NCBI GenBank assembly: GCA_019359695.1
Contig: JAHHGV010000011.1
Location: forward strand, 62,001-126,000
Length of the DNA stretch: 64,000 nt
From: Brasilonema angustatum HA4187-MV1
GTDB lineage: Bacteria; Cyanobacteriota; Cyanobacteriia; Cyanobacteriales; Nostocaceae
Direction: 5' to 3'
Shown here piece after piece: positions 3,706-39,994 of the stretch (its first letter is position 1; every line of letters begins with the position of its first letter). The translations under genes and the position numbers were made by a program. The notes below the pieces were generated by a model, which had not been told where the DNA came from, ran no database searches, and worked only from the letters and a program-made list of their open reading frames with translations.

Positions 3706-4569
3706 TTACGGCACATTGACCTCTTGCAACAGCCAAAACCCCGCAAAAGATTCTTCTTGAGGATTGGACTGTACTGCGATAAAATGCACCCCATTAGCTT
3801 TTTGCTTTGCTTCTTCAAAGCTTTTGGCTTCTGCTAGTGTTTGAGAGTTTTTGAGATTTGCCAAAATCCAGCTTTCAGTTGCACCGGTTTCTAAAAGCAA
3901 TCTCGGCTCTTCCTTATCATCTAATTTCAACCAGGCTAACTCTAAACCGGAGATCCAACCTGCGATTGGCAATGCTCTTGGTGAGAATATCAAAATACCA
4001 GGAATAGGAGTTTCAGGGGAAATTTGCGCCAATTCAAAGGGAAAAGCTTCACCAAAACCTATTTCCCACTCGTGCATTCCCGTAAATTCCGATTGTTGTA
4101 AAGTAACAAATATCCACTGCTTTCCTTCCAAAGCGTCTGGTAAGCGTTGGGGTAAAGGGTTATCTAGGCGCACAGATGGATTTGTTCCAGCTTGATAGCC
4201 CGGTTCTTGAGGATAAACTTCTTCCATCCGCTGTTCTAGCCATTGGTTAAGCAGCAAAGTGCGGCGACTTGGCTGAGCGGAAATACCTAAATCTTTGCAA
4301 GCTTTGGTAATCATATTGTTCATTTGGCGGCGGAAAAAGCGTATTCTTATTGGTGTTTTTCCTGCTTGGCTAATTGCTTCTTCCAACGCAGTCCGCAGCC
4401 ACACTGAATTCACCTCAGTGCTGGGGCAATATTTCGCAAAGCGAAAGATAGAATCAATTTTCGTTCGGGTTTCCAAAGGAGTTTCGCATACCAAAACTTC
4501 CCAAACCTTTTTCTGATTTTCGTCCAGAATCGGACGCGAGTAAAAATCAAGTTCCCAAATACTGCCCAT
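3706..4569 (-). CDS. Tab2/Atab2 family RNA-binding protein (DUF1092)
   Basis: A protein of 287 aa beginning MGSIWELDFYSRPILDENQK, the hallmark N-terminus of the Tab2/Atab2 family, with a central block RIRFFRRQMNNMITKAC and a C-terminal GFWLLQEV. In Chlamydomonas and Arabidopsis these proteins bind the psaB mRNA leader and are needed for translation of photosystem I and II subunits; the cyanobacterial homologues are assumed to act on photosystem biogenesis in the cytoplasm. Length and both ends fit the family. It appears monocistronic: upstream is the repeat zone at 4.6 kb, and the gap to the PmbA-like gene downstream has no obvious terminator. Confidence 0.9.
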   Translation of the reverse strand: MGSIWELDFYSRPILDENQKKVWEVLVCETPLETRTKIDSIFRFAKYCPSTEVNSVWLRTALEEAISQAGKTPIRIRFFRRQMNNMITKACKDLGISAQPSRRTLLLNQWLEQRMEEVYPQEPGYQAGTNPSVRLDNPLPQRLPDALEGKQWIFVTLQQSEFTGMHEWEIGFGEAFPFELAQISPETPIPGILIFSPRALPIAGWISGLELAWLKLDDKEEPRLLLETGATESWILANLKNSQTLAEAKSFEEAKQKANGVHFIAVQSNPQEESFAGFWLLQEVNVP

Positions 4570-6332: not shown

Positions 6333-8330
6333 ATGATCTACTGTCTCAACCCCAGTTGCGAGAAGCCCCAAAATCCAGATGGTGCATATTTCTGCCAAAG
6401 TTGCGGTATACAATTGATACCTCAGTTGCGAAACCGCTATCGCATTATCCAACCATTGGGAGGGGGGGGATTTGGCAGAACTTTTTTGACAGAAGATGAA
6501 GACAAACTGAATGAGCATTGTGTTGTCAAGCAACTCGCACCGCAAGTCCAAGGAACCAGCGCCCTGCATAAAGCAACAGAACTCTTTCAACAAGAAGCGC
6601 GGCGTCTGCAACAACTTGGAGAACATCCACAGATTCCAACTTTGTATGCCTACTTTAAAGATGATAACTACTTGTATTTGGTGCAGCAGTTTATCCAAGG
6701 GCAAACTTTGCGAGAGGAGTTGAGACAACAGGGACTGTTCGGTGAGGAAAAAATTTGGGAACTGTTGAATGAACTCTTACCTGTGCTCAAATTTGTTCAC
6801 GAACATCAAGTTATTCATCGGGATATAAAACCAGAAAATATTATTCGTCGTTCCTCCGAAGATGGTAGAAAAGATTTAGTGCTAATTGATTTTGGTGTTG
6901 CCAAGCAGTTAACAGTAACTTCTTTAGAGCATACGGGTACAGTTATTGGTTCCTATGGCTATGCACCAATTGAACAAATGAAGTATGGCAGTGCATATCC
7001 AGCAAGCGATTTGTTTAGTTTAGGTGTAACTTGCTTTCATCTATTAACAGGAATTCACCCATCTGGGCTTTACATGGAACATGGCTATGGTTGGGTGATG
7101 CATTGGCGGCAATATCTCAAGTCTGGCATATCTCCAAAACTGGATCAGGTGTTAGACAAGTTATTACAAAAAGATATTGAGCCTCGTTACCAGTCCGCTG
7201 ATGAAGTTTTGCAAGACTTACGTCAAAAGCAACAACCAGAAGTCATTCCAGCAAATATGACTGCAACGCGATACACGGGGCGTCAAGCCTCCGGCTTATC
7301 GCCTTCAGCAATTTCCTTACAGTCATCAGTTTTTCCCACTGTTCCAAGCACTATTCTTCAACCAAGAACTCAGTGGAATAAATCTCTGCTAATAGGATGT
7401 TTTATTACACTTTTTGCGTTAATTGGAATTATTTCTTACTGCCAACTGTTTGGGCGAACTTCAGTCCTAACTGGACATTCAGGTGAAGTTAATTCTTTAG
7501 CATTCAACCCTAAAGGTACTACTCTTGCTAGTGGCAGTGATGACAAAACGATCAAACTTTGGAACTTCAACAGAAGAAAAGAAATTCGCACTCTTAAGGG
7601 ACATAAAGGTATTATTTATTGTGTCGCAATTAGCCGGAATGGTCAAACTCTTGTCAGTGGTAGTCAGGATAACACAATCAAAGTCTGGAATTTGAAGACG
7701 GGGCAGGAAATTCGCACTCTTAAAGGACATTCCGGTCTGATTAATTCTGTTGCTATCAGCCCAGATGGTGAAAAAATTGCCAGTGGTAGTTATGATAATA
7801 CAATCAAAGTCTGGAACTCTAAGACGGGGCAGGAAATCCGCACTCTGACGGGGCATACAAGAGAAGTTCTGTCTGTCGCCATTAGTCCGGACAATCAGAA
7901 GCTAGTTAGCGCCAGTGCAGACAGAACTATCAAAGTGTGGAATCTGAATACAGGAAAAGTTATACTCACCCTCAAAGGTCATGAAGGTGATGTGAATGCC
8001 CTTGCCATTAGCCCGGATGGTCAATTGTTAGTGAGTGGCAGCGATGATAAAACTGTTAAAGTATGGAATTTCAATACAGGAAGAGAAATACGTACTTTTC
8101 GAGAGTATGCAGCTGATGTGAGTGCGATCGCTTTCAACCCAGATGGCAAAACAATTGCTAGTGGTAGCGATGACGGTATAGTTAAAATCTGGAATCTGAG
8201 TACAGGAGAGGAAATAACCTCCTTTGGCGCACATACAAGCGAAGTTTTTGCTGTCGCTTTCAGTCCAGATGGCAAAACTTTGGTGAGTGGTGGTAAGGAC
8301 AAAACTATCAAGATTTGGCCAGTTCCTTAA
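6333..8330 (+). CDS. Zinc-ribbon Ser/Thr protein kinase with C-terminal WD40 propeller
   Basis: A cytoplasmic-facing signalling kinase of the cyanobacterial '4-Cys' group. The order is an N-terminal zinc ribbon (CLNPSC...CQSC), a kinase domain with glycine loop GGGGFGRT, lysine in VVKQLAP, catalytic HRDIKPENII and LIDFGVAK, then one transmembrane helix (about SLLIGCFITLFALIGIISYC) and seven WD40 blades ending at the stop. The seven blades would close one propeller outside the membrane, probably for ligand or protein sensing. I prefer the ATG at 6333 (MIYCLNPSC) over 6306 because the paralogue at 40858 also starts right before its ribbon. The gene is convergent with the exported-protein gene, only 10 bp away. 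Confidence 0.92.
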   Translation: MIYCLNPSCEKPQNPDGAYFCQSCGIQLIPQLRNRYRIIQPLGGGGFGRTFLTEDEDKLNEHCVVKQLAPQVQGTSALHKATELFQQEARRLQQLGEHPQIPTLYAYFKDDNYLYLVQQFIQGQTLREELRQQGLFGEEKIWELLNELLPVLKFVHEHQVIHRDIKPENIIRRSSEDGRKDLVLIDFGVAKQLTVTSLEHTGTVIGSYGYAPIEQMKYGSAYPASDLFSLGVTCFHLLTGIHPSGLYMEHGYGWVMHWRQYLKSGISPKLDQVLDKLLQKDIEPRYQSADEVLQDLRQKQQPEVIPANMTATRYTGRQASGLSPSAISLQSSVFPTVPSTILQPRTQWNKSLLIGCFITLFALIGIISYCQLFGRTSVLTGHSGEVNSLAFNPKGTTLASGSDDKTIKLWNFNRRKEIRTLKGHKGIIYCVAISRNGQTLVSGSQDNTIKVWNLKTGQEIRTLKGHSGLINSVAISPDGEKIASGSYDNTIKVWNSKTGQEIRTLTGHTREVLSVAISPDNQKLVSASADRTIKVWNLNTGKVILTLKGHEGDVNALAISPDGQLLVSGSDDKTVKVWNFNTGREIRTFREYAADVSAIAFNPDGKTIASGSDDGIVKIWNLSTGEEITSFGAHTSEVFAVAFSPDGKTLVSGGKDKTIKIWPVP

Positions 8331-29880: not shown

Positions 29881-30444
29881 CTAGCCACCCATCTTCAGCC
29901 ATCCAAAAACTTGATTGACGGTTAATGTCAGTTCAATTTCTGGTAACACAGGCAATAAATCCTCTCCCATAAGTAATAAAGGCTGTTGCTCACGGAGAAA
30001 TACTAAGATACTCAAGTCATCAGGATCAATAAACCATCCGAGGCGACTACCATGTTGTAAGCAATAAAGAATATTACCAATCACTTTGTTGGGTTTTTGT
30101 TCTGGCGAGAGAATCTCAATCGTCCAATCTGGCGGTAGTTCAAAGTTATCAGGAACCTCATCATCAATCAGAAATGGTATGCGCCTCCACAGAAATATAG
30201 CCACATCCGGTACAATTGAGCGTTCCCCGAAACTACAACGTAATTCGGGAAAAGCATAGGCAATCCTCTTGTCTTCTGCAACTTGATTGACTGCTGCACA
30301 GAGTTTACCTTGCAAGCGGCTGTGTCTCCCCTTCGGCATTGGCTTTTGAATAATTTCACCGTTAATATATTCACTGGCTGGCTTGGTTTCTGGGAGCTTC
30401 AGGAACTCCTCTAGGGTAAGGGAGTGGAGAGTTGTAGCGCTCAT
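29881..30444 (-). CDS. Uma2-family putative endonuclease (DUF820)
   Basis: 187 aa, Uma2/DUF820 family: LTLEEFLKLPETKPASEYI, HSRLQGKLCAAVNQVA, then the PD-(D/E)xK-like core VPDVAIF and WTIEILSPEQ, and GSRLGWFIDPDD near the end. The fold is that of restriction endonucleases. The family is expanded in cyanobacteria, often next to mobile or repeat sequences, and its biological targets are unknown. The lysine after the second acidic residue is replaced by Gln (SPEQ), common in this family. The start ATG 30444 fits. Confidence 0.88.
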   Translation of the reverse strand: MSATTLHSLTLEEFLKLPETKPASEYINGEIIQKPMPKGRHSRLQGKLCAAVNQVAEDKRIAYAFPELRCSFGERSIVPDVAIFLWRRIPFLIDDEVPDNFELPPDWTIEILSPEQKPNKVIGNILYCLQHGSRLGWFIDPDDLSILVFLREQQPLLLMGEDLLPVLPEIELTLTVNQVFGWLKMGG

Positions 30445-30608
30445 GGCTCCTGAATCAGTACGAAGATGTGTTCTCAGTTTAGCAAAACGCAGCGGGCTAG
30501 CTCATTTGACAGGCGCGTCCTTGGCGGGTACTCCGTGCCGTAGCGGTATTGGTGTCGAGATTAATCACACTTTACCAGCAAAAAAAGTTGTGTTTTACGA
30601 ACTACACA

Positions 30609-30706
30609 ACTATACAACGTGCGATCCGAGACGATTACAGAGACAATTCTTATAAAAACTATACAACGTGCGATCCGAGACGATTACAGAGACAATTCTT
30701 ATAAAA
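30609..30706. repeat. Perfect 49-bp tandem duplication
   Basis: Two head-to-tail copies (30609-30657 and 30658-30706) beginning ACTATACAACGTGCGATCC. It is noncoding. The surrounding gap 30445-30984 also carries a GC-rich hairpin CCGCTAAC...GTTTAGCGG near 30845-30870. No other gene is seen. Confidence 0.9.
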
Positions 30707-30984
30707 AATGTGCGATCGCCCTTCATCCTAATAGCGCGTAAGTGAGTGCTATATCTAAACGCAAGTCGGTACATTGTTAATGCATCGGCTTGCCCTGAGA
30801 ACAGAATGTTACTATCAAATCAACTGGTGAGGCCACGCAGTCCCCCGCTAACCTTCGGTTTAGCGGTGGGAGAAACGCCGCTCCGGGACTGGGGACTGGG
30901 AAAATATTAATTAAAATCCTCAGTCCCCTTTCCAACATAGATTATGCTAGATTCTTAGGTATTCTTTTTAACAAGGTTTTTTTG

Positions 30985-31218
30985 ATGATGTTTCAACGCC
31001 GCCGCCTTAGTACCACCGACTCCGAGTTGAACTCATTTGAACTCATTCGGGAGTTGACAGGCCAGCTACCAAAAGAACAGGTGACACAAAGTGAAGAGTT
31101 AGAGGAGTTAGAGTTGACACCAGAAGAGATTCGAGGAATAGTTGGGGGTCATAGACAAGGGGGACGAGCCCAAGGGGGTCTAGTTCCTTGTGTATGGTGT
31201 CAGTACGGGTGCTGCTAG
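30985..31218 (+). CDS. Candidate RiPP/bacteriocin precursor with double-Gly leader and Cys-rich core
   Basis: 77 aa from ATG 30985, eight bases after AAGG; a TTG at 30982 is less likely. The N-terminal about 54 residues are a charged, helical, acidic leader (SEELEELELTPEEIRGIVGG) that ends in the classical double-glycine cleavage motif (ELx6-8 IVGG). The remainder is a short glycine-rich stretch with a second GG, followed by LVPCVWCQYGCC at the very C-terminus: four Cys in nine residues, plus Trp and Tyr. This matches the logic of precursors cut by C39-peptidase/ABC exporters, with thioether, disulfide or heterocycle chemistry at the Cys. No modifying enzyme or exporter is next door. Precursor status is inferred from design, not from homology. 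Confidence 0.6.
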   Translation: MMFQRRRLSTTDSELNSFELIRELTGQLPKEQVTQSEELEELELTPEEIRGIVGGHRQGGRAQGGLVPCVWCQYGCC

Positions 31219-31226
31219 TGATGATA

Positions 31227-31969
31227 TTACCTCATTAATGCAACTTCCGTCAAACGCTCTATTAGCTTGGATAGGATAAACTTATCTACCACAACCGCAA
31301 CCGCCACTTCGGGGCGATCCAATACCTGGCACAGATCCCAAAGTGTCAATTGACCAGGTGAAGATTTATGCTTATCTTTATTCCGCCTAATTTTATGACC
31401 AGCCAGCAGCTTACTATCCCAGTTAGACTTGCAGGCTGGTTTTGCTTTTGGTTTATGTCGTTGACAAAAGCCTCGGTACTTTTTTGCACATTCATCCAAT
31501 GTTTTACCCAGTCCTAGAAAAGCTGGATGCCACGCCCTAACGGGAAGTAAAAAGTCAAAAGTCAAAAGTCAAAAAATTATTATTAGGATCTTTCTTTACT
31601 CGTTACTGTCGTAGAAAAAGCTGCGTCGCATTTGGGCGGCTTTGGGATTGCCGTGGATATAGCGAAGAGTATTTAACGCTCGTTGTGTATCGGTGGGTAA
31701 CCGGAAAACCCATCACAGTAATACCGCTGTTCCCAGAAGTGCCCTGTACGATTCAGCATCCGGTTGAAGCACATGGCGGTGTACCAGTTGAGGAAATGCA
31801 TTATTTTAGGCAAATCTTCTGGAGTGGCTGGTTCTATCAAGTAGTGGATGTGGTTGGACATGATGCACAACGCGTAAAGTTTGAAGTTATATTTGTCCAA
31901 ACTTTTTTTGATTGCATATAAGAAGACTTCTCGGCATTCCCGTAACTCAATAGCAATTATCCCAACCAT
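31227..31969 (-). pseudogene. Decayed REP-associated tyrosine transposase (RAYT/IS200-like Y1)
   Basis: Three frames together spell a Y1 transposase. Part 1 (31969-31673): YNFKLYALCIMSNHIHYLIE contains the HUH metal motif, then GHFWEQRYY with the catalytic tyrosine region. Part 2, in another frame near 31690-31610: TDTQRALNTLRYIHGNPKAA. Part 3 (31565-31227): WHPAFLGLGKTLDECAKKYR and SPGQLTLWD. A run of AAAAGTC heptamers at 31550-31574 separates parts 2 and 3. The true N-terminus is absent, and part 1 overlaps the end of the aldo/keto reductase gene by 13 bp. The element is inactive. Confidence 0.75.
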
Positions 31970-32988
31970 TCCGGATTCTTAGCTGTACTATCAAATTGAT
32001 TCGTAGTCTTAAATAGCTCATACTGACCTTTTGCAGCAGCAGAACGAGTGCGATCAAGTAACGCCTTAACTTGTTCGTTGCTCATTGGCTTAAATGTGCG
32101 TACTGCCTCAAACGCTTGGTTTAGAATTTCCATGCTTTCAATACCTGCAATAACGGTTGAAGTTGGCAGGTTCATGGCGTAGTGAAGACATTCGATGGGT
32201 TTAACAGTATTGCTCTTGAGAATATTTTGGTCGCCCATTGATTTCATACCCAGCACACCGATTCCATTGCTCACTAGTTTGGGTAAAACTTGCTGTTCAA
32301 AACTCCTAAAATGTGCATCCATCACATTTAATGGCATCTGCACTGTATCGAAATGAAAGTTATTTTGAGCAGCAACTTCCAGCATTCTCAGGTGAACCAG
32401 AGGATCTTTGTGTCCGGTAAAGCCGATGTAGCGAATCTTGCCTGCTTTTTGAGCTTCTAGCACAGCTTCCATTGCACCACCGGGAGCAAACACGCGGTCT
32501 GCATCTTCCATGCGAATGATTTCATGATGCTGTAGCAAATCAATACGATCTGTTTGCAAACGTTTGAGAGAATCATTAATTTGCTGAGTAGCCGCCTGTT
32601 TTGTTCGACCGTCTATCTTTGTCATGAGAAACACTTTTTGACGGTAACCGTCCCGCAAAGCTTTACCCATACGGATTTCGCTTCCTCCGTTATGGTAGTC
32701 CCAACTGTTATCCATGAAATTGATACCACGATCAATGGCAGTTCGGACGAGGCGGATACCTTCTTGCTCATCTTTTGGTCGTCCAATATGGTGACCTCCT
32801 AAACCAATCAGCGATACTTTTTCTTTGGTGCGTCCCAAAATTCTGTAGATCATTTCGCCGCTTTTGGTCTGAGTAGGTCTATTTTGGGCATGTACTTGTG
32901 AGAATAACCCTTCGGTAGCTGCCAACCCTGCTGCAACCAAACCTGAGGTAGAAGCTACTTTCAATAAATCTCGTCTGCTGATATCCAT
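31957..32988 (-). CDS. Tat-exported aldo/keto reductase
   Basis: 343 aa. The N-terminus MDISRRDLLKVASTSGLVAA is a twin-arginine signal (SRRDLLK) followed by a hydrophobic stretch and a probable cut after VHA. The rest is an AKR barrel: TIDRGINFMDNSWDYHNGGS region with the catalytic Asp and Tyr, FLMTKIDGR (Lys), DLLQHHEI (His), ending in the cofactor-binding ESMEILNQAF region. Folded export with bound NADP(H) by Tat would place it in the periplasm or thylakoid lumen; the substrate is unknown. Its 3' end abuts a transposase relic. The gene is divergent from the NifU-domain gene. Confidence 0.9.
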   Translation of the reverse strand: MDISRRDLLKVASTSGLVAAGLAATEGLFSQVHAQNRPTQTKSGEMIYRILGRTKEKVSLIGLGGHHIGRPKDEQEGIRLVRTAIDRGINFMDNSWDYHNGGSEIRMGKALRDGYRQKVFLMTKIDGRTKQAATQQINDSLKRLQTDRIDLLQHHEIIRMEDADRVFAPGGAMEAVLEAQKAGKIRYIGFTGHKDPLVHLRMLEVAAQNNFHFDTVQMPLNVMDAHFRSFEQQVLPKLVSNGIGVLGMKSMGDQNILKSNTVKPIECLHYAMNLPTSTVIAGIESMEILNQAFEAVRTFKPMSNEQVKALLDRTRSAAAKGQYELFKTTNQFDSTAKNPEWLG

Positions 32989-37009: not shown

Positions 37010-39994
37010 TCATCCTGTTTTATTGCCTTTTACGTTATCGCCTGCAAAATTATCGCCTTCTCCATGTTGGTTAATGGTTTTAGAACGGCGATCGCTAACA
37101 TTAACATGAACTGTAAGAGGTGAGTCGTCTCCTTCTATAAATTGATCGCCTTTTGACTTTCTTTGACGTATTCCAATGTCTTCATAGCCATCTAAAAGTT
37201 GACGCAAATCTAGTTTTAATCTTAGTTTGCCGATTGTGATTGTGCTTTCACCCATTGATTCGAGTCCGAGGAGTTCTTGGTAGTCAAGGGGTGGATGTTT
37301 GGGGTGATTGGGGACGGGAACCCATTCGGTGATTTCGAGATTGGGAAGACTTTTGTGGATTTTTTGGAAGACATCGCGGAGAATGCCGAGAAATAAGCGC
37401 CGGGTTTCTTGGCGTCCGCGAATGGTGATGAAGATTTTTTTGTCTTCGGGATCGGCTTTGATGCGAGCGATGTTGTAGATTTCGTTGTTTTCTTGATATT
37501 GCAGCATTACGCCACTGCGCCAATAGATTTGCTTATAAATTTTTTCGTGGGTGATGACGATGAAGCGGGAGATGATGCTTTCGGGGAGAACTTTGTAATG
37601 GTATTGAAATTCCAGGGTTTCGCCGTGGAGTTGTGTTTCGTTTGGTTGGTCTTTGGGCAAAAGTCCTGGAATCAAAAATTGTGGTGGTTGACATTCTAGT
37701 GCAAAGCAAAGCTCAAATTCTTTCATCAGCCCGATTAGATACTCGTGACGCTTGGTGGGGTATCGCTCTGGATTGAGGATGCGAGTGAGATCGGCGGGGA
37801 TAAAAATGCCTTTGGTTTCAGTTTTGAGGTTTTCATTGCTCAGGAGCGCGTAAATACCTTCTGTCACCCAGTTGGGTTTGAGGACGTTGGTATCTTTGAG
37901 GATGGGGTGATCGCGGAAGTTGAGAACTAAGCCGAGTCGATGCAGCAAGTCGATTAGTTGCTCTTGGTTTTGTTCTTCGGGAATCTCTTTTTGGTGGCAG
38001 ATGCCGATGTAGCTGTTGTAGCTGATGAAGTCTTGGGGCATGGATTCAAGTTTTTGTTTAACCTCAAACCATGAGAGGGGTAAAAGGTCGTAGACTTCTT
38101 TGAGTTTGGCGATTTGCTGCAAAATTGCGGTGCGAAGTTCATCAATGCCGATATTGTCTTGGCAGGAGGTTTCGATAATCGCTTGGATGTTAGGATATTT
38201 TTCGCGTAATGCCTTGCGGTTGATGTCGAGGGGTTGTTCGTCTTTTTTGTTGCCAACGATAATTACGGGGGACTGTCCGCCGAAGCTTTCGATTAGTTTG
38301 AGCCAATATTCGATGCGGTTTTCTTCTTCGCTAGTGCGACAATTACAAACGAGCAGATAGAGGCTGCGCTTAGTCAGAAAAAATTGATGGGTGGCATGAT
38401 AAATTTCCTGTCCACCAAAGTCCCAAACATTCAGGCGGATATCTTTGCTATTGACCTGCACGTTCCAAGTTTGTACATTGAGTCCGTCGGTTTGGGGTTG
38501 ATTTTTGTCATATTTATTGCGGATTAGTCGCTCGATCAGGGATGTTTTGCCGACGCTACCTTGTCCGATGAGCAAGAGTTTGGCTTCGTGTAATGGTCGA
38601 GTTTCACTTGTGCTAATTTGTCTCAAGTAATTCAAAATCTCTTTTGCATCTTTTGAATTAAGAATTTCTAATGGAATATTGGTAATTAAATTGTTATCAA
38701 GTTGAAGCTGCGTCAGATTGGTTAAATTAGCGAGCGCCTCTGGAATCTGGGTTATTTGGTTGTTATAGAGGCGAAGCAGCGTCAGATTGGTTAAATTAGC
38801 GAGTGCTTCTGGAATCTCGGTTATTTGGTTGCAACTGAGATCAAGCAGCGTCAGATTGATTAATTTAGCGAGCGCCTCTGGAATCTGGGTTATTTGGTTG
38901 CAACTGAGATCAAGCAGCGTCAGATTGGTTAATTGTGCGATCGCCTCTAGAATCTGGGTTATTTGGTTGCCATTGAGGTGAAGCTCCCTCAGATTGGTTA
39001 ATTGTGCGATCGCCTCTGGAATCTCGGTTATTTGGTTGACATTGAGGACAAGCTCCCTCAGATTGGTTAATTTAGCCAGCGCCTCTGGAATCTGGGTTAT
39101 TTGGTTGCAACTGAGGTGAAGCTGCGTCAGATTGGTTAATTTAGCCAGCGCCTCTGGAATCTGGATAATTTGGTTGTCACTGAGGTCAAGCTGTGTCAGA
39201 TTGGTTAATTGTGCGATCGCCTCTGGAATCTGGGTTATTTGGTTGTAACTGAGGTTAAGCTGCGTCAGATTGGTTAATTGCGCGATCGCCTCTGGAATCT
39301 GGGTTATTTTGTTGCGACTGAGGTGAAGCTGCGTCAGATTGGTTAATTGCGCGAGCGCCTCTGGAATCTGGGTTATTTGGTTGTAACTGAGGTTAAGCTG
39401 CGTCAGATTGGTTAATTGCGCGATCGCCTCTGGAATCTGGGTTATTTTGTTGCGACTGAGGTGAAGCTGCGTCAGATTGGTTAATTGCGCGATCGCCTCT
39501 GGAATCTGGGTTATTTGGTTGTCACTGAGGTGAAGCTGCGTCAGATTGGTTAATTTAGCCAGCGCCTCTGGAATCTGGGTTATTTGGTTGTCACTGAGGT
39601 GAAGCTGCGTCAGATTGGTTAAATTAGCGATCACCTCTGGTATTTCAGTTAGCTCTACTCGAATTAAGATAAGTTCCTCTAAATGTAGTATTTGCTTTAC
39701 CACATAGGGAATGCTCACTAAAGGATTGCCACTAATATCCAACTTACGCAAATTAGGCAAATCCAATAGTTCGAGTGGAAGCGTTTTTAAATTGTTGCCC
39801 GAAACCTTTCGGAGAACGCGGTTTCCTACTTCTTCATAACCTTCAACCTTCTTTCCCAAAATCAAAAACTCAAGTTGCTGCAACTTACCAATTTCTACAG
39901 GTAACTCAGTCAACTCCTGCCCCGACAAGTCTAACTCTTGCCAACCCTCAGCCACGGCGCGATCTATCAGTACCAACAACTCATCCTGCGTCAT
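37010..39994 (-). CDS. LRR-Roc-COR (Roco family) GTPase
   Basis: 994 aa. N-terminal leucine-rich repeats (about residues 15-455), including 14 nearly identical 23-residue units of the type LTNLTQLHLSDNQITQIPEA. Then a Roc GTPase domain: P-loop LLIGQGSVGKTSLIERL, switch WDFGGQEIYHATHQFF, and VGNKKDEQP for guanine. Then a COR dimerisation domain (VYDLLPLSWFEVKQKLESMP onward). There is no kinase domain. The C-terminus ends in INQHGEGDNFAGDNVKGN, a motif shared with the downstream gene. Roco proteins switch by GTP-dependent dimerisation; here the likely output is the small partner encoded 21 bp downstream rather than a fused kinase. Start ATG 39994 is unambiguous. Confidence 0.93.
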   Translation of the reverse strand: MTQDELLVLIDRAVAEGWQELDLSGQELTELPVEIGKLQQLEFLILGKKVEGYEEVGNRVLRKVSGNNLKTLPLELLDLPNLRKLDISGNPLVSIPYVVKQILHLEELILIRVELTEIPEVIANLTNLTQLHLSDNQITQIPEALAKLTNLTQLHLSDNQITQIPEAIAQLTNLTQLHLSRNKITQIPEAIAQLTNLTQLNLSYNQITQIPEALAQLTNLTQLHLSRNKITQIPEAIAQLTNLTQLNLSYNQITQIPEAIAQLTNLTQLDLSDNQIIQIPEALAKLTNLTQLHLSCNQITQIPEALAKLTNLRELVLNVNQITEIPEAIAQLTNLRELHLNGNQITQILEAIAQLTNLTLLDLSCNQITQIPEALAKLINLTLLDLSCNQITEIPEALANLTNLTLLRLYNNQITQIPEALANLTNLTQLQLDNNLITNIPLEILNSKDAKEILNYLRQISTSETRPLHEAKLLLIGQGSVGKTSLIERLIRNKYDKNQPQTDGLNVQTWNVQVNSKDIRLNVWDFGGQEIYHATHQFFLTKRSLYLLVCNCRTSEEENRIEYWLKLIESFGGQSPVIIVGNKKDEQPLDINRKALREKYPNIQAIIETSCQDNIGIDELRTAILQQIAKLKEVYDLLPLSWFEVKQKLESMPQDFISYNSYIGICHQKEIPEEQNQEQLIDLLHRLGLVLNFRDHPILKDTNVLKPNWVTEGIYALLSNENLKTETKGIFIPADLTRILNPERYPTKRHEYLIGLMKEFELCFALECQPPQFLIPGLLPKDQPNETQLHGETLEFQYHYKVLPESIISRFIVITHEKIYKQIYWRSGVMLQYQENNEIYNIARIKADPEDKKIFITIRGRQETRRLFLGILRDVFQKIHKSLPNLEITEWVPVPNHPKHPPLDYQELLGLESMGESTITIGKLRLKLDLRQLLDGYEDIGIRQRKSKGDQFIEGDDSPLTVHVNVSDRRSKTINQHGEGDNFAGDNVKGNKTG
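38680..39640. repeat. 69-bp tandem repeats coding for leucine-rich repeats
   Basis: About 14 units of 69 bp with high nucleotide identity; many carry GCGATCGCCTCTGGAATC, so a HIP1 octamer is propagated with the repeat. This indicates recent expansion inside the Roco gene. It is not a CRISPR: units are contiguous and coding. Confidence 0.88.

Follow-up and report, generated by a model that had tools for sequence, protein, structure and literature searches.

The stretch of DNA analyzed here, 64,000 nucleotides of Brasilonema angustatum HA4187-MV1 (the window), appears to carry an orphan double-glycine peptide precursor at a hypervariable locus, with a strain-specific core that extends up to the boundary with a convergent TnpA_REP-like transposase gene and that would have arisen by enzyme-linked replacement of a gene segment. 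This reading is about as likely as not.

The open reading frame lies on the plus strand at 30982/30985–31218. The mechanically assigned start is the TTG at 30982, and translation from the ATG at 30985 gives a peptide of 77 aa; an AAGG sequence was seen by eye 9–12 bases upstream of this ATG. The leader (30985–31149, plus strand), MMFQRRRLSTTDSELNSFELIRELTGQLPKEQVTQSEELEELELTPEEIRGIVGG, is 55 residues long and acidic, with the C-terminal end EEIRGIVGG. The core (31150–31215, plus strand), HRQGGRAQGGLVPCVWCQYGCC, has 22 residues and contains the sequence CVWCQYGCC, with four Cys among the final nine residues. Reading frame and translation thus bear out the double-glycine ORF with acidic leader and four-Cys core of the original prediction. 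When codon usage was scored with seven long window ORFs as the training set, the leader reached +0.25 in its own frame, compared to −0.12 to −0.62 in the other five frames, whereas the core, at −0.30, was not scored as coding. Judged by this score, the leader resembles an established gene, and the core sequence of recent origin. The core also has a higher G+T content than the leader (0.61 vs. 0.49) and includes an 8-nt direct repeat. Considering these values and the lack of a second DNA match among those listed, we read the core as a strain-unique variable segment, while the coding score of the leader and its double-glycine design give the gene the look of a genuine precursor.

Searches with the whole peptide returned only the peptide itself below E 0.002, in its own genome, in 388 order, 217 family, and 386 phylum genomes, and in plasmids, phages, viral contigs, and GTDB contigs, the contig scans reaching close relatives only. 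The best non-self E values were 0.0086, 0.022, and 0.0025 for the order, family, and phylum genomes, respectively, and came from ORFs of 258–386 aa. Most of the weak matches were ORFs of 370–400 aa aligned over residues 3–61, which we judged to be chance, and the remainder were generic GG leaders from other cyanobacteria. When the DNA from 30450 to 31660 was searched against seven genus genomes, including its own (40 of 56–113 candidates scored per genome), both flanks of the ORF were matched repeatedly, and a second copy of the ORF itself (query 536–769) was absent among the matches listed. Leader and core were also run against curated precursor models, as the original prediction had proposed, and no match was found in Pfam (E up to 1) or NCBIfam (E up to 10); the best PHROGs match had an E value of 0.44. 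There was no Pfam match to the DUF5837/PatE-type cyanobactin family, and no match to Nif11 in the leader. With zero Ser or Thr residues, the core does not qualify as that of a lanthipeptide precursor, and lanthionine rings are excluded. A CVWCQYGCC-like cluster was absent from all the other double-glycine peptides at the related loci of the genus described below; outside the genus, one such peptide (L146) has CGYC and another (L149) two scattered Cys. By the refuting condition set in the original prediction, the idea of a new precursor family with the Cys cluster as its signature therefore fails, since no significant homologue with a conserved GG leader was found and the cluster is missing from the other peptides. 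The claim that the ORF is a precursor stands.

The informative part of the locus is the transposase relic, which had earlier been mentioned merely as a neighbor. The C-terminal part of this decayed Y1/HUH transposase lies on the minus strand at 31224–31565, and a remnant of its Y1_Tnp domain, lacking the N-terminus, was identified on the same strand at 31673–31969 (55.9 bits). In the copies that keep the left end of the shared tail, homology starts at 31224–31229, which is 6–11 bp past the stop codon of the peptide gene. The relic has 78% protein identity to a copy on contig C24 (query 5–91). Similarity to the C24 copy stops at 31939, and synteny with the congener G388 resumes at 31949. Only two copies of the tail clade in the genome keep the Y1 domain, one on C24 and one on C72 (the window contig); both are truncated at the N-terminus, and each sits behind a double-glycine peptide. 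Upstream of the peptide gene, the predicted tandem duplication (30609–30706) was found again, with copies starting at 30609 and 30658 and a period of 49 bp.

The locus is bordered on the left by a Uma2-family gene (29881–30444, minus strand), with congener synteny breaking at 30538, and on the right by a gene that by eye resembles an aldo/keto reductase (31957–32988, minus strand). G388 is syntenic on both sides and has a 4.3-kb cassette, NACHT/HEAT-type by eye, compared to 1.4 kb in the window. This cassette (L041, 7293–11598) occupies the site of the peptide gene, marking the Uma2-to-reductase interval as a variable locus. Two further congeners (G391 and G392) were syntenic on the left side only, within the sequence compared, and the left edge had no match in the other three; no clean empty site was found among the six congeners. 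Elsewhere in the window, at 37010–39994, there is a 994-aa leucine-rich-repeat protein with a part that by eye resembles a Roc/COR GTPase, in which the repeat units are strongly repeated.

A search with the right flank gave 20 matches, corresponding to 18 loci in five of the seven genus genomes. The shared tail is the 3′ end of the Y1 transposase gene, convergent with the peptide gene. The match started at 31224–31229 in 11 of the 18 tails (window included), at 31235 in one, and at 31322–31421 in six, in which the first 95–195 bases of the tail were unrecognizable. The upstream neighbor, taken as a gene in the same orientation within about 500 bp (recognized by eye at L108), was a double-glycine peptide in 12 cases, a short peptide with a Sec-like leader (judged by eye) in four, a small Cys peptide in one, and the end of an enolase gene (by eye) in one. 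As a control, 400 kb tiled from three other contigs of the same genome yielded a single match to the double-glycine pattern, in a 147-aa ORF of a different kind. The possibility that the relic was a chance neighbor was rejected on these counts (12/18, against none real in 400 kb). The short peptides with a Sec-like leader (RRVCLAVGLSAVVVGALGADLSA or close to it) at L027, L106, L103, L145, and L151 have unrelated cores upstream of the same tail, and their leader DNA looks G/T-rich. At three loci (L105, L107, and L113), the double-glycine cores at the tail resemble ordinary bacteriocin-like sequences.

With a 104-aa C-terminal query, the transposase was found in 105 of 208 family genomes. We examined 90 loci among the matches listed (the 30 first loci and the next 60 by E value, minus two own-genome rows already included). 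Because the double-glycine pattern used for these loci is loose and also matches long proteins, such as L148, an adenosine deaminase by Pfam, Pfam counts were used instead. GUN4 was present in 55 of 60 convergent neighbors of at least 120 aa, in some cases together with TIR, trypsin, kinase, or FGE domains. The remaining loci included five acy-type cyanobactin precursors (L153, L156, L158, L167, and L185), double-glycine and Sec-like peptides, and some without a clear neighbor. The GUN4 motif occurred convergently on the C-terminal side of the transposase at 47 of the 90 loci, compared to none on the other strand there and none beyond the N-terminus, where the control stretch was partly cut in 30 shorter loci. 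We also looked for distant full-length transposases beside double-glycine peptides in L152–L173, but by the double-glycine pattern there were none, the matches at L157 and L172 being parts of longer unrelated ORFs. A second set consisted of named GTDB loci, partly from the same genomes and hence not independent of the first. The best 80 of 207 were classed by pattern as cyanobactin (15), GUN4 (32), unclassified (28), or without a convergent ORF (5); by Pfam, the neighbors of at least 90 aa among these best 80 included GUN4 in 37 of 47, Nif11 in one, and DUF5837 in one. The cyanobactin neighbors in these best 80 came from Planktothrix, Dolichospermum, Arthrospira, Nodularia, Argonema, and others.

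The ends of the GUN4 genes share a common structure, as determined from the 40 of 91 loci in which both limits could be found by pattern. The conserved body ends in G[HSQ]LP or a variant, followed by a variable segment of 14–193 nt and then by a DNA boundary near TCTTCTCTCGCGTCGAGACTTGTAA, whose reading frame varies among loci (17, 5, and 18 of the 40). Replacement of the segment was seen in paralogues. Four GUN4 paralogues in G286 (on two contigs; a fifth is found in its congener G142) have pairwise identities of 78–96% in the body and 93–99% in the flank, with 19–38% in the segment, compared to 20–34% after shuffling. The double-glycine pair L149/L150 (G460 and G485) is 92% identical in the body with its leader and 99% in the tail, and has 33% identity in the core, slightly above the shuffled value of 24 ± 5. 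Acy-type cyanobactin precursors behave alike, with variable parts that are 20–51% identical compared to 25–29% after shuffling, implying some residual similarity. In one acy-type precursor (L156, 1308–1440, transposase on the minus strand), the segment shifts the FAGDDAE end into another frame. In L157 and L342, the GHLP body end recurs inside the variable segment, as if there had been two insertions.

Segments of at least 30 nt had a mean G+T content on the coding strand of 0.65, compared to 0.50 for the bodies (n = 39, p 2.3e-7), with a range of 0.38–0.92. In-frame readings were open in 36 of 39 segments, compared to 36 of 78 other forward-frame readings, a comparison that may favor open segments, as the loci were found via their ORFs. 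Internal 8-nt repeats were present in 11 of 34 segments (3.8 expected). The cores of twelve double-glycine peptides had a mean G+T content of 0.57 compared to 0.45 for their leaders, which are acidic and A-rich and thus not a neutral control. Four of these cores (L117, L102b, L149, and L150) were at 0.45–0.53, and the G/T excess is not general among segments. We searched G286 for a donor of the L190 segment, using 61 nt of the segment of about 84 nt plus 23 nt of boundary as the query. None was found there; beyond the self match, the variable part gave only 14–17-nt matches, plus 7–11 nt by the boundary at two further sites.

The boundary pattern was found in 37 of 60 family genomes, with 74 sites listed, compared to zero for a reversed-pattern control. 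Thirty of the listed sites were examined, of which 27 were at GUN4 gene ends by motif; L265, which came from a separate search, and L266 are outside these 30. A transposase was present within 900 bp at nine of the 30 sites, and none was detected within that distance at the other 21, so that some sites do without the enzyme in cis. The boundary is thus the constant feature, and the enzyme may act in trans or be unneeded. Some boundary variants could be paired by eye into a mini-hairpin, in registers that differ, whereas others were unpaired.

The window copy of the transposase is itself decayed, and the enzyme was characterized from its relatives. An intact relative (P0001) matched Y1_Tnp with 64.2 bits against 23, and the NHxH and YIHxNP motifs were present in all 36 relatives inspected, out of 80, two of which carry an in-frame stop. 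A structure model of the enzyme was of low to moderate confidence (pLDDT 63.9, pTM 0.62), with much of the C-terminal third under 50. Its best fold match was 4er8, a REP-associated tyrosine transposase bound to its hairpin; no PDB entry was matched by sequence at E 0.01. The NCBIfam model REP_Tyr_transpos (NF047646) gave 54.5 bits, compared to a cut-off of 80, which places the protein outside the equivalog. From its HUH motifs and predicted fold, we classify the transposase as a Y1/HUH enzyme that is TnpA_REP-like.

No C39 transporter or modification enzyme is encoded near the peptide gene, as originally stated. The proposed whole-genome search gave 13 C39-peptidase matches over the cut-off and two YcaO enzymes, none of them on C72, so that handling of a stray precursor in trans is possible. 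Of the earlier interpretation, then, the orphan double-glycine precursor with export machinery elsewhere is retained, and the Cys cluster as the signature of a new family is not. A locus on contig C4 (L036, 4490–14888) encodes a C39-domain transporter (the match lies within a 1780-aa ORF) and a 480-aa ORF that is HlyD-like by eye, together with four precursors of the double-glycine type. Of these, three end in ELTEQEISGIVGG or ELTEAEISGIVGG, close to the window leader end, ELTPEEIRGIVGG. Three of the four are also rich in Ser, Gly, and Asn. Contig C62 carries a cyanobactin-type cluster (L275, 8659–15059) with a precursor in which the core ICPCMC occurs three times, a 775-aa YcaO protein, and a protease that is subtilisin-type by eye. 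Another locus, on contig C65 (L359), has, at 6412–7534, a tandem array of three double-glycine peptides sharing a leader, near fragments of the same transposase tail, and a further double-glycine peptide at 4000–4191.

We propose that the window leader serves ordinary export, with cleavage most likely following GG, and that a C39 transporter, for example that of the C4 locus, would export the peptide in trans. The core would be a strain-specific segment ending at the boundary of the convergent, now decayed Y1/HUH transposase gene. Relatives of this transposase sit convergently at the 3′ ends of many double-glycine and cyanobactin precursor genes and GUN4-domain genes, in which the last codons are exchanged as a block while the body on one side and the 3′ boundary on the other are conserved. 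In such an event, the enzyme would nick the 3′ boundary in single-stranded form, and the subsequent repair or joining would leave a new, often G/T-rich and partly duplicated segment in place regardless of frame, with selection retaining those segments that are open. The association, the segment replacement in relatives, and the HUH motifs with the predicted fold are shown by the data. The window core is plausibly one of these transposase-linked segments; as no second gene with the window leader was found, we infer this from the relatives. Counting against the proposal are the boundary sites at which no transposase was detected, the uneven G/T excess, the bacteriocin-like cores at L105, L107, and L113, the residual similarity in acy-type pairs and in L149/L150, and the six tails with an unrecognizable start.

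Other explanations can be weighed against this proposal. The transposase might be a selfish TnpA_REP-type element that prefers the hairpins or terminators of certain genes, the ends of which vary by unrelated recombination and selection without involvement of the enzyme. Relics are frequent, TnpA relatives bind hairpins (as in the 4er8 match), and a hypervariable end with no transposase detected within 900 bp was seen at 21 of the 30 boundary sites examined, all in keeping with a selfish element. However, such an element would not explain why its neighbors are GUN4, cyanobactin, and double-glycine genes, all with variable ends, nor why the segment limits are sharp, and we consider it rather unlikely. 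It is improbable that the ORF is a plain orphan bacteriocin-like peptide beside a coincidental relic: the coding signal in the leader and the C39 loci elsewhere in the genome would fit, but the frequency of double-glycine peptides at the genus tails (12 of 18) compared to the 400-kb control had already made coincidence unlikely.

A cyanobactin-like precursor, in which the C62 cyclodehydratase converts the four Cys to thiazol(in)es in trans, is suggested by the Cys-rich ICPCMC core and the YcaO protein of that cluster and by the motif IR..TGQLP common to both leaders (single-comparison E 3e-4, shuffle p 6e-4). That comparison, however, was made post hoc, after the sequence had been seen, and other double-glycine leaders matched the window leader with equal or higher scores. 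The window peptide also lacks the [AS]YDG-type C-terminal signal, its leader ends in GG, and a Pfam match is absent even at E 1, making this reading more improbable still. Finally, the ORF could be a gene that is not expressed, consistent with the lack of a homologue in our searches and with a core that is not codon-adapted. The coding score and double-glycine design of the leader argue against this, and we regard it as very improbable.

We know of no accepted mechanism by which cores change in cyanobactin-like precursors with near-identical flanking DNA. A diversifying role has reportedly been proposed for prochlorosins by Laurenceau et al. A link between transposase and precursor genes has already been reported for lanthipeptides of marine picocyanobacteria: according to the citing passage in PMC10783134, Laurenceau et al. 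(bioRxiv 2020.03.09.984088) linked lanthipeptide genes to TnpA_REP. As far as that passage goes, the systems are alike in the association of a TnpA_REP-type transposase with RiPP precursor genes, but the spread seen here is wider, taking in filamentous as well as other cyanobacteria and genes of the double-glycine, cyanobactin, and GUN4 classes, with convergent 3′ placement and with replacement demonstrated in terms of body, segment, and boundary. The window peptide also differs from those lanthipeptides in having a leader without a Nif11 match and a core without Ser or Thr. Three other papers report cyanobactin precursors with hypervariable cassettes and a transposase between artE and artF (PMC4663559), a transposase between sphE and sphF (PMC6162287), and transposase genes near cyanobactin and other clusters, taken there as a sign of transfer (PMC4603692). 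The conserved flanks around a replaced core are like those of the hypervariable-cassette precursors, and 15 of the best 80 transposase loci adjoin such precursors; the window peptide differs in its GG leader and in lacking a match to the cyanobactin family.

REP-associated HuH proteins (TnpA_REP/RAYT) are classified in PMC6006769. The present enzyme shares with them (PDB 4er8) the HUH motif, the catalytic Tyr motif, and the predicted fold, but falls below the NCBIfam cut-off, is longer (255 aa, compared to 165 in 4er8), and is found at the 3′ ends of variable genes. Cyanobacterial diversity-generating retroelements, with IS200/IS605 transposases near the diversified variable proteins, are described in PMC7517822, and GUN4 is placed among cyanobacterial conflict systems in PMC7159879. 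Like the retroelement targets, the genes seen here include hypervariable multidomain signaling proteins with TIR, kinase, and GUN4 domains. The variation itself looks different, since it alters length and frame and replaces whole segments, unlike the adenine-directed substitutions that a reverse transcriptase copies in from a template repeat. In the literature surveyed by title or start of abstract, there was no report of such a transposase as the place where the ends of GUN4, double-glycine, or cyanobactin genes are exchanged.

These observations suggest a shared way of generating variety at the ends of peptide and signaling genes. More broadly, and tentatively, an HUH-transposase-linked diversity generator might rewrite the 3′ ends of cyanobacterial genes at a fixed boundary lying downstream, using new segments that are partly untemplated, often G/T-rich, and unrestricted in length and frame; it would act in cis and in trans and serve double-glycine, cyanobactin, and perhaps Nif11 precursors as well as GUN4/TIR/kinase conflict proteins; this is possible, although doubtful, and CVWCQYGCC would then be one draw. 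Since one transposase family is found both with unrelated precursor classes and with GUN4-type signaling proteins, in each case at variable 3′ ends, the question of how cores turn over becomes testable. It also means that the residues of orphan Cys-rich cores may mirror the composition of an inserted segment and not a design shaped by evolution.
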